DNA of 64,000 bases from Bradyrhizobium sp. ORS 285 (lineage in GTDB: Bacteria; Pseudomonadota; Alphaproteobacteria; Rhizobiales; Xanthobacteraceae), in assembly GCF_900176205.1 (NCBI RefSeq), contig NZ_LT859959.1, positions 1 through 64,000 of the forward strand, written 5' to 3'. The notes beneath the pieces are model-generated. The model was not told where the DNA came from and did not search any database. It saw only the letters and a program-made list of their open reading frames with translations. Every line of letters starts with the position of its first letter. Positions within the stretch are counted from its first letter, which is position 1. This document shows, piece by piece, positions 10,104-11,572 of the stretch. The translations under genes were made by a program, and so were the position numbers.

Positions 10104-10391
10104 CTATTCAAGTGGCTCGTCCTGCGCGGTATGTCGGACGTGCAAGATAACGACCTCGTCGGCCGCCTGATCGATAGCATAGAAGATCCGGAAGGGATAA
10201 CGCACGACCGACAGGACCCTAACCTTTGGCTCGTCGGTGACGTGGCCCGCCCAGGGAAAGGTCGCGAGAATGGATGTCAGTCGATCAATCCGAGCGACCA
10301 CCGACGCAGCCGCCGTCGGATTGCGCTCGTGAATGTAGGAGAAGATGTCCCCGATCTCGGTCAGCGACGACTGAGACCAGCGGACTTTCAT
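10104..10391 (-). CDS. RelE/ParE-family toxin of a type II toxin-antitoxin pair
   Basis: 95 residues, the usual size. The ParE/RelE fold signature is visible: N-terminal WSQSSLTEIGDIFSYIHERN helices, VVARIDRLTSIL, PWAGHVTDEPKVRVLSVVRY and the beta strands YPFRIFYAIDQAADEVVIL. The start codon overlaps the antitoxin stop in an ATGA, so the two proteins are translationally coupled. ParE members poison gyrase and RelE members cut mRNA on the ribosome; sequence alone does not settle which applies, but the HTxxDE-like end and RYPFRIFY strand look ParE-like. Confidence 0.88.
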   Translation of the reverse strand: MKVRWSQSSLTEIGDIFSYIHERNPTAAASVVARIDRLTSILATFPWAGHVTDEPKVRVLSVVRYPFRIFYAIDQAADEVVILHVRHTAQDEPLE

Positions 10392-10618
10392 GCCCGATAG
10401 CGGTCGAAGATGGCAGCTACCGCGGCATCATCGGCGAGCTTCCGCTCTCGCATCTCTTGCAAGCCGCGGTGTACGGCTTTGCGCTCCGCATCGCTCAGGC
10501 GATACGGACCGATGTGACGTGTCTCGATATCTTCCAAGGATCGCACGAACTCGGCCTGAGCCTGCTCCGGCCAAGTCGCAACACGCTCCAGCAGCACTTC
10601 GAGAGCTTCTCGGGTCAT
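10388..10618 (-). CDS. Antitoxin of the ParE-type pair
   Basis: 76 residues from the ATG at 10618. The frame runs further upstream but that part crosses a palindromic repeat and is not protein-like. It is a small, mostly helical, charged protein (REALEVLLERVATWPEQAQA, then LSDAERKAVHRGLQEMRERK) ending in IFDRYRA. Size, place upstream of the toxin and the 4-base ATGA overlap identify it as the antitoxin. Antitoxins of this sort bind the toxin with the C-terminal half and often repress their own promoter. No obvious DNA-binding signature (ribbon-helix-helix or HTH) is clear by eye. Confidence 0.82.
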   Translation of the reverse strand: MTREALEVLLERVATWPEQAQAEFVRSLEDIETRHIGPYRLSDAERKAVHRGLQEMRERKLADDAAVAAIFDRYRA

Positions 10619-10735
10619 AGGCCGATAATAGCAGATGACGGAGGATCGCGCATCAGTCGATTGGACCGTTCGCAGCAGGGCTGAGCGCGCAACCGAGCAG
10701 GAGCGGCAGGTTTGCGAGGTCTTGCCGCACCAACG

Positions 10736-10862
10736 GTGTCGTCCCGGCCTTGAGCCGGGACCCAAAACCACCGTCGTTAGTTATCAGGCAGGCTGGAGCG
10801 GCTTTCCTTGTCATCACATCCGCCTTTGAGTATGGATCCCGGCTCAAGGCCGGGATGACGGC
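10736..10862. repeat. Inverted pair of C-family palindromic repeats
   Basis: TCCCGGCCTTGAGCCGGGA at 10742-10760 is matched by TCCCGGCTCAAGGCCGGGA at 10837-10855, in opposite orientation. Each unit is itself a hairpin (TCCCGGC/GCCGGGA). Together they can form a long cruciform. The pair lies just upstream of the toxin-antitoxin operon. Confidence 0.8.
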
Positions 10863-11169
10863 GGAGGATGTGGCCGGCGTCCGCGAATCTCAAATTGCCC
10901 GTCGCGTTACCATGTCGCACCTCGCCAGCCTTGTGTCGTCGGGCAAATCAGATCGATTCTTCCGCCCGTCCCGCCTCACTGAAGAGGGGCGCTTCGCGGT
11001 CGTCACGAACGTGGAGGTGGGATGCGGTGGACGCGGTGTGGCGCAGCGGGCCAATGGGCTCGCGGACGAACGTCATGGCGCGGACGGTCAAGTCGCATGG
11101 TCCTGACATCCCGATGCTGATGCCAAGCTGGCGGTGATGATCCGCTGGTGACGGGGGCAAGACAGCCCG
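10863..11169. other. Gene-free stretch between repeats
   Basis: Several open frames exist but none has a ribosome-binding site, recognisable domain or gene-like composition. The last part (about 10960-11160) appears to belong to the same dispersed element as the structured block that follows, because translated fragments of it resemble well-known spurious proteins from bradyrhizobial intergenic DNA. That last point is from memory and not computed. Confidence 0.45.
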
Positions 11170-11207
11170 GTCCCCGGGGAGAGTGCGAAGCAGCCGTTAA
11201 AACCATC

Positions 11208-11333
11208 GCGCAGGGAGGGCCGGGTCTTGTCCGGCTGAACCTGTGGTACCTGCCGCCTGCATTTTTTTCCGCAGGCGGGCCACGGGCCTCAGTCGGGGCC
11301 CGGCCTTCCCTGCGCCCTTTGATGGAAGAGGGC
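11208..11333 (+). repeat. Strongly folded repeated element, possible structured RNA
   Basis: A long outer stem joins 11208-11224 to 11299-11315 (CGCAGGGAGGGCCGG against CCGGCCTTCCCTGCG, with one G-T wobble). Inside it, CCGCCTGC 11253-11260 and GCAGGCGG 11271-11278 form a perfect 8-bp hairpin with a T-rich 10-base loop (ATTTTTTTCC). A third hairpin, GCCCT...AGGGC, occupies 11314-11333. I recall similar sequence in many copies in Bradyrhizobium genomes, often miscalled as protein genes. Whether it is transcribed is unknown. Confidence 0.55.
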
Positions 11334-11428
11334 GAGAGAGGATCAATGCTCGGACGCGAAAAGCGGGCGCGAGGATGATGACCTGTGTCTACACACTCAG
11401 TCGACGTATGTGTACCCCGCTCTATCCA

Positions 11429-11540
11429 CGTCATTGCGAGCCAACGGGTCCGCGCGAAGCGTGGCCCGATGACAGGCTCCGCGAAGCAATCCAGAGTCCC
11501 GCCCACCATCCTGGATTGCTTCGCTGCGCTCGCAATGACG
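11429..11540. repeat. B-family palindromic repeat (CGTCATTGCGAGC...GCTCGCAATGACG)
   Basis: CGTCATTGCGAGCC at the left end is complementary to CGCTCGCAATGACG at the right end, and inner arms GAAGCAATCCAGAG and CTGGATTGCTTCG also pair. Other copies are at 41852-41927, 53751-53828 and 58396-58507. Confidence 0.85.
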
Positions 11541-11572
11541 CGTGGAGAGATTTGTGGCCACCCACTCACGCT

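Follow-up and report, generated by a model that had tools for sequence, protein, structure and literature searches.

A hairpin in the stretch of the Bradyrhizobium sp. ORS 285 chromosome analysed here (64,000 nucleotides, referred to as the window) probably belongs to the 3' part of a structured RNA gene, one of a large family. The element is no mobile repeat in decay: where tested, it is selected in place at the RNA level, and the members of the family are most likely independent RNA genes at inherited, oriented positions.

The boundaries of the element (approximately 10965–11393) were set by aligning 30 copies found with blastn together with their flanks. Copy L007, in which the 5' part is non-homologous, was excluded, and the alignment of the remaining 29 full copies (A1) was folded with RNAalifold into a consensus of 96 pairs in 14 helices. 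Coordinates in the window are as follows.

10906–10964, + strand: promoter-like upstream region, partly conserved (ortholog identity and consensus scan)
10931–10936 and 10955–10960, + strand: best sigma70-like site, TTGTGT and GATTCT with a spacer of 18, a weak consensus match
10937–10951, + strand: motif CGTCGGGCAAATCAG, where an IS1182-family element has inserted in other copies
10965–11393, + strand: whole structured element, window copy, 429 nt (29-copy alignment; profile match 10966–11391)
10969–11022, + strand: helix H1 (10969–10976/11015–11022) enclosing H2 (10988–10991/11001–11004) (consensus fold, covariation)
11024–11209, + strand: multibranch domain, H3–H9 (consensus fold, covariation)
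11024–11030/11203–11209, + strand: H3, closing the multibranch domain, GCGGTGG...CCATCGC
11031–11036/11078–11083, + strand: H4, multibranch domain
11093–11104/11177–11188, + strand: H5, multibranch domain
11105–11110/11119–11124, + strand: H6, multibranch domain
11127–11132/11144–11149, + strand: H7, multibranch domain
11152–11158/11165–11176, + strand: H8-9, multibranch domain
11081–11214, + strand: core used for covariance model R1 (window copy 138.6 bits)
11210–11313, + strand: long hairpin of the first-pass annotation, H10–H13 (fold, inverted repeat, covariation)
11210–11226/11297–11313, + strand: H10, long hairpin
11230–11236/11291–11296, + strand: H11, long hairpin
11240–11247/11279–11286, + strand: H12, long hairpin
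11253–11260/11271–11278, + strand: H13, long hairpin, with a T-rich loop at 11261–11270
11312–11335, + strand: short hairpin with a variable loop, CGCCCT...AGGGCG, seen in the sequence and in copies, absent from the consensus structure
11349–11352/11370–11373, + strand: terminal hairpin H14 (consensus fold, covariation)

The zone of high identity between orthologs spans about 10931–11381, flanked by shoulders that reach about 10906 and 11406. REP-like palindromes of other kinds flank the window copy (10730–10865 and 11430–11545), and by eye several kinds of similar palindromes lie 3' of many copies in genome G216. At 10104–10650 the element is adjoined by frames that presumably resemble a toxin-antitoxin pair.

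The first-pass annotation had placed a folded element at 11208–11333. The hairpin it described is real, but that interval covers just the 3' third of the approximately 430-nt element. The closing stem is a 17-nt inverted repeat (11208–11224 with 11299–11315) that is 94% complementary and contains a single G-T pair, the inner hairpin is a perfect 8-bp match of CCGCCTGC with GCAGGCGG (11253–11260 with 11271–11278) around the T-rich loop ATTTTTTTCC, and the additional 3' hairpin can be seen by eye at about 11312–11335. What had gone unnoticed are extra pairs that bridge the outer stem and the inner hairpin, a bigger fold 5' of the hairpin (10965–11210) and more structure 3' of it (to 11393). The + strand of 11190–11350 folds at -97 kcal/mol (z -6.4) and the - strand at -79.1 kcal/mol (z -4.0), and for each strand none of 200 shuffles was as good. 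The remark that the sequence is often miscalled as protein held in a mild form: six proteins match at E ≤ 0.001, the window's own frame included, two of them named as hypothetical proteins (Bradyrhizobium sp. ORS 375; B. oligotrophicum) and one more as 'hypothetical protein'. A protein-coding reading of the element was rejected; the 76-aa frame has no NCBIfam match.

The repetition of the sequence, stated in that annotation, is borne out by the genome itself. A blastn search with 161 bases of the hairpin found at least 40 places in the 7.80-Mb single-contig genome (40 of 147 candidates scored). Searching with covariance model R1 (150 candidates scored) gave 134 strong copies at 78–143 bits, the next match scoring 34 bits, and this set includes 40/40 of the blastn places. 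In order to exclude an effect of preselection, 860 kb were searched whole: R1 recovered the identical 17 copies above 100 bits and the 34-bit relic, the remainder being noise at 17 bits or less. The whole-element profile found the same 17 copies and one relic in these 860 kb, plus the 5' piece of an insertion-split copy 1.4 kb from the copy at 70330; with this profile the long hairpin also gives weak matches on the opposite strand of copies. All 17 copies are intergenic by a crude gene call, with two of the estimated edges overlapping a called gene by about 30 bases. Seventeen intact copies to one relic is unlike a decaying repeat. The suggestion that the hairpin is the remains of a mobile repeat is thus unsupported as it was stated, since copies are near-intact, many positions are common to related species and the element is conserved in place; the element may nevertheless have been mobile in the past.

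Covariation across copies was compared with shuffled alignments and with structures in which pairing partners were slid. In A1, 96.6% of cells are paired, compared to 38–45% with slid partners, and 212 cells carry two-sided changes, compared to 67 in shuffles; 35 of the 96 pairs have such changes. Four of five covariation measures beat all 500 shuffles, while the fifth, the count of further pair types, was weakly above them (reached by 18/500). Because the A1 structure was derived from A1's own sequences, covariation in this alignment is not independent evidence by itself. Alignment A3 comprises 79 copies from ORS 285, other Bradyrhizobium and other genera, fitted to the model. Of the cells that belong to its 27 core pairs 95.0% are paired, compared to 37–52% in slid controls, and 291 cells show two-sided changes, compared to 77 after shuffling; the count of pair types is again weakly above shuffles (reached by 5/500). 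The test for compensatory change that had been proposed for the hairpin therefore came out in favour of RNA, two-sided changes being present across copies.

A single wobble pair had been taken as a hint that the stem is held at the RNA level, and this argument holds more broadly, as the helices contain more G-U than A-C, even in a structure chosen with G-U forbidden (+ strand, G-U 14, A-C 4). Pairs predicted on both strands gave G-U 15 and A-C 2, and a symmetric search for covarying pairs, which includes pairs outside the structure, gave 32 against 12. The count on the RNAalifold structure itself (G-U 376, A-C 21) was discarded as a strand test, being biased by the folding rules. The + strand folds lower than the - strand in 29/29 copies, which are related (means -231 and -200 kcal/mol). 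Single-copy folds, the G-U excess and the scarcity of A-C in orthologs (see below) agree, and point to + strand RNA.

Copies at the same place in related genomes allow selection to be followed locus by locus. Forty copies with their flanks were taken from B. aeschynomenes and BTAi1, and 24 same-locus pairs were identified with those ORS 285 copies for which flank sequence had been extracted, 11 via both flanks (the window copy among them) and 13 via one; flank matches to related genes at 67–73% identity were discarded by eye. None of the 40 was seen with flanks matching an element-free stretch of ORS 285. In 18 of the 24 pairs the element is 0.90–0.96 identical to the ORS 285 copy at the same place, which is also its closest relative. 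At the other six loci (L355, L357, L371, L377, L378 and L392) another ORS 285 copy is closer or equally close, and replacement or gene conversion between dispersed copies therefore occurs; this process may contribute to maintenance of the fold.

The base-pair test was done on the 18 pairs, which represent 16 ORS 285 loci (two loci used twice), excluding the six replaced-type pairs, and the structure was taken solely from ORS 285 copies. Among 144 standard base pairs that differ, 103 were kept by a single change, 27 by a double change, two became A-C and 12 were otherwise broken. Neutral change simulated under an identical substitution spectrum gave approximately 60 single kept, 2 double kept, 37 A-C and 82 otherwise broken, so that 130/144 changed pairs still pair, compared to about 62/181 under neutrality (119 broken). 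The kept share fell from 90% to 43–63% when partners were slid by 1–3 columns, and 21 doubles are left after dropping one pair that holds six of them. Paired columns have diverged by 5.6% and unpaired columns by 16.6%. An identity profile of 16 pairs in 25-nt bins (8 of the 24 pairs left out) gave 0.82–0.99 in 16 of the 18 bins that span -150 to +300 relative to the start of the core, the two lower bins lying at the variable stem (0.70) and near the short 3' hairpin (0.79). Flank identity is 0.53–0.65 upstream of -200 and 0.60–0.84 downstream, where it climbs toward the next gene. At the compared loci the element is a conserved island between diverging flanks. These comparisons of sequence show that base pairing has been selected in place at 16 ORS 285 loci, on the + strand and at the RNA level, and that this selection acted after ORS 285 had diverged from B. 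aeschynomenes and BTAi1. An uncharacterised structured RNA, one of the two identities that had been suggested for the hairpin, is strongly supported by the covariation, by base-pair selection in orthologous copies and by the lack of any Rfam match.

Positions can also be lost, and may be gained. The empty site that was read closely, opposite ORS 285 131746, is in BTAi1 a deletion from which the element's 3' end survives. Over the 400 kb opposite ORS 285 0–460 kb, where ORS 285 has eight copies, BTAi1 carries a single one. Out of 30 copies in the more distant G216, two match a flank of an ORS 285 copy, on one side each, and the flank of another (L147) matches an ORS 285 stretch without a copy; so few common positions point to gain or loss. 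At the antiporter locus of the window the element is absent in 29/29 other sampled species. A recent insertion at this locus was at first taken as proven, and was rejected as such since B. aeschynomenes carries the element there, so that either gain or loss would account for the pattern. In one locus that lacks the element (L129), a stretch 67% alike to 10104–10650 lies about 10 bases from the antiporter gene.

Conservation among orthologs extends, in part, over about 50 bases upstream of H1. The best sigma70-like scores in this region average 11.4, compared to 10.5 for shuffled sequence, and the -10 end lies 111–130 bases before the core in 22/42 ORS 285 copies. This modest match is suggestive of a candidate promoter upstream of the element. 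Each copy is quite likely its own predicted transcription unit, whose promoter would lie immediately before H1 and whose end would fall within or close to a neighbouring REP-like hairpin; such hairpins are, by eye, frequent 3' of the element. The downstream gene faces the element in 73/109 cases (copies of ORS 285, G216 and B. aeschynomenes/BTAi1, the loci being partly shared). The upstream neighbour has no fixed orientation (22 opposite and 15 same among ORS 285 copies), and inspection by eye of eight gene-called loci from other genera showed no constant neighbour gene.

The 5' edge of the element is also the site of an insertion sequence. ORS 285 has nine near-identical copies of an IS1182-family IS (NCBIfam IS1182, DDE transposase; e.g. 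at L210, L211 and L212), eight of which sit at the 5' edge of an element, 181–195 bases 5' of the core; the remaining copy follows one of these in tandem. The eight are oriented both ways relative to the element (three same, five opposite), and in the three junctions read the insertion point is the motif CGTCGGGCAAATCAG. Terminal inverted repeats in common with an autonomous IS, together with a target duplication, would mark a MITE of a DDE insertion sequence; the IS seen here carries inverted ends of its own and breaks off at the element's 5' edge, the boundaries of the element being approximate. A diverged relative of the IS lies at the 5' side of one G216 copy. We considered the IS as an autonomous transposase partner and rejected this, as three IS copies do not differ at a single base while the elements beside them do (over the first 300 columns they agree in 52–77 of 100). 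Identical ISs beside differing elements, at the edge in 8/9 cases and in both orientations, indicate that the IS targets the element and does not carry it. An IS with such a target could be used for mapping the element. A separate query, L089:4945–6145, matches 178/265 genomes, often several times, with two places in ORS 285, and is probably also an IS.

The copies are not scattered at random along the ORS 285 chromosome. Gaps between them average 58 kb with a CV of 0.75, compared to 0.99 for random placement (p 0.0004), and gaps below 5 kb, of which about 12 would be expected, are absent. G216 is likewise under-dispersed (CV 0.71, p 0.005), and G253 is not evenly spaced (CV 1.04). Spacing depends on orientation: median ORS 285 gaps are 20.7 kb for convergent, 59.4 kb for direct and 78.0 kb for divergent neighbours, and the 20 gaps below 20 kb comprise 16 convergent, 4 direct and 0 divergent, a result matched by 0/20000 strand permutations. 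The mean divergent gap exceeds the convergent one in G216 (p 0.004) and G253 (p 0.007) too, although the close-pair test alone is not significant in G216 (3 gaps below 20 kb, p 0.11). In G311, sorted by hand, 8 convergent gaps of 17–201 kb compare with 8 divergent gaps of 81–464 kb (U = 5 of 64). When each ORS 285 element is projected 6–16 kb upstream, the CV of gaps below 180 kb, otherwise 0.54, drops to about 0.46, and none of 2000 strand shuffles went below 0.50; the same control gave p 0.04 in G216 and p 0.08 in G253. Recombination between close copies, considered as a cause of the spacing, would not distinguish convergent from divergent pairs.

Part of the effect could come from the replication halves where strands follow them, as in G253. 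Copies are co-oriented with replication in G253 (30/37) and G216 (39/54, or 38 with a midpoint cut), less surely in G730 (8/10) and G035 (13/17 at the midpoint, 14/17 with a cut chosen by eye), and are not in G194 (10/17), G311 (15/35) or ORS 285 (72/134); the halves assume that the contig start is the origin, and were counted by hand except in G216. This inconsistency counts against our preferred reading of the element, that of a family of structured RNA genes that are possibly chromosome-associated (see below). A 382-kb gap of ORS 285 free of elements contains low-G+C DNA that is probably acquired: five of six 20-kb samples at 1.16–1.38 Mb have 58–59% G+C and one 63.7%, compared to 65% in reference stretches. 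The stretch at 6.54–6.56 Mb, within a large element-free gap, is similarly low (58–61% over both stretches, compared to 65%), and both are probably acquired islands. Around the 17 copies of the 860 kb, no oriented 7-mer rose above the null, and gene direction shows a weak trend.

The element is nearly universal in the genus and sparse outside it. Matches were found in 250/257 Bradyrhizobium genomes (12 candidates scored each), in 48/198 genomes of a family-level sample (16 candidates scored each), 11 of the 48 within the genus and 10/47 genera represented, and in 9/297 genomes of an order-level sample (10 candidates scored each), all nine within the genus. Named contigs among the pattern matches listed are mostly Bradyrhizobium, and also Afipia, Rhodopseudomonas and unplaced alphaproteobacterial MAGs. 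One pattern match (L317) is on a contig titled Candidatus Acidiferrales MAG and may reflect a binning error or transfer. With 12 candidates each and stricter filters, seven Bradyrhizobium genomes gave no match (G303, G325, G328, G342, G390, G433 and G513); they are candidates for complete loss and would be useful for tracing a co-lost partner gene. Copy numbers with 150 candidates scored are 134 in ORS 285, 131 in B. aeschynomenes 83002, 67 in BTAi1, 65 in B. erythrophlei GAS478, 54 in G216, 37 in G253, 35 in G311, 17 each in G035 and G194, 3 in an Afipia MAG and 1–10 in ten others. Given a range from 0 to 134, the element seems dispensable in some species. Where there is a single copy a chromosome-wide array is impossible, which again counts against the preferred reading. 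The window copy had no blastn match on 72,556 plasmid records or 50,697 phage records.

By analogy with a nucleoid-associated RNA, the transcript would be a chromosome-associated RNA that works where it is made or close by, and every oriented copy would serve tens of kb of chromosome, mostly upstream of itself. We put this forward tentatively, as possible rather than probable; a local territory would account for an influence of position, orientation and spacing beyond that of dosage, and territories that extend upstream for tens of kb would let two copies converge closely while forcing divergent copies far apart. A more specific and more doubtful form is a directional chromosome-organising RNA, in which oriented landmark genes every ~60 kb would have upstream territories and form an RNA-coded counterpart of oriented boundary elements. 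We regard as similarly doubtful a trans-acting RNA that is multicopy for dosage, for example one that binds or sequesters a protein, with place and spacing secondary. It agrees with a core fold that is unchanged from 1 to 134 copies, with the promoter-like region and with the lack of a constant neighbour in the loci of other genera inspected by eye, but it predicts neither orientation-dependent spacing nor stable positions.

A long-lived population of mobile elements that are non-autonomous and REPIN-like, in which the fold is kept for self-copying (e.g. through an RNA intermediate) and not for a local job, is in our view unlikely. Differences between species in copy number and subfamilies would follow from it, as would the 6/24 shared loci with another or an equally close subfamily, the antiporter locus lacking the element in all 29 other sampled species and the G216 copy beside sequence that is copy-free in ORS 285. 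Against this, orthologous copies remain in place with their base pairs kept, intact copies outnumber relics 17 to 1, the closely read empty site is a deletion, plasmid and phage records lack blastn matches to the window copy and no copy was detected in the 382-kb gap with its low-G+C DNA. Quite improbable is a cis-acting RNA of neighbouring genes, be it a terminator, a 3'-UTR stabiliser or an insulator between converging genes: the frequent converging downstream gene and the REP-like hairpins 3' of the element speak for it, but a 430-nt multibranch fold with conserved loops exceeds what a terminator needs, the upstream neighbour is not fixed in orientation and the element has a promoter-like region of its own. 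Position and orientation are best matched by a chromosome-associated RNA, the variable copy number by a dosage RNA and the replacements by a REPIN-like population. If the family is one of RNA genes as proposed, ~58 kb of the chromosome (134 x ~430 nt) would be devoted to a single large structured RNA, an unusually abundant RNA gene family for a bacterium, present across nearly the whole genus, not in Rfam and sometimes annotated as protein. Its orientation-dependent spacing would offer a direct test of RNA genes as long-range chromosomal landmarks.

A covarying structured RNA would belong in a library such as Rfam, and the element matches no family there. With the 4227 models of Rfam 15, nothing in the window reached the gathering score, and 19 related loci gave no match at that score except for one neighbouring tRNA, the weak matches being far below it; group I and group II intron models had no match at E ≤ 10 in 10880–11420. 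A riboswitch or leader would have a constant 5' UTR placement before genes of related function, while here, judged by gene direction, the downstream gene is co-directional in only 36/109. As expected of a structured non-coding RNA, pairs are kept by compensatory change beyond neutral expectation. Searches of open-access literature for the element and for Bradyrhizobium repeats turned up no description of it, the nearest paper (PMC5082802) covering other, short palindromes; we regard the element as new because of this and the lack of an Rfam match.

The IS1182-family IS at the 5' edge uses the element as target, not cargo. REPINs are non-autonomous mobile DNA associated with a RAYT (tyrosine transposase). 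REPs are described as palindromes of 20–40 bp and REPINs as inverted pairs of these, mobile DNA whose doublets are random in extragenic space (PMC3733652, PMC3116915), and the consensus sequences printed for Br-REP1 and Br-REP2 of B. japonicum are short palindromes (PMC5082802). The element resembles them as a dispersed, intergenic, folding repeat of which hundreds of copies are possible, and REP-like palindromes also surround it. It differs in being a unit of 429 nt with 14 helices, in its compensatory changes at fixed loci and in its placement, which is orientation-dependent in ORS 285, G216, G253 and G311 and under-dispersed in ORS 285 and G216, not in G253. The naRNA4 of E. coli, which derives from REP325, is reported as HU-bound and as affecting nucleoid condensation (PMC6907758). 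Both would be RNAs of a repeated extragenic element, and we propose naRNA4 solely as a possible functional analogue, a nucleoid-associated RNA.
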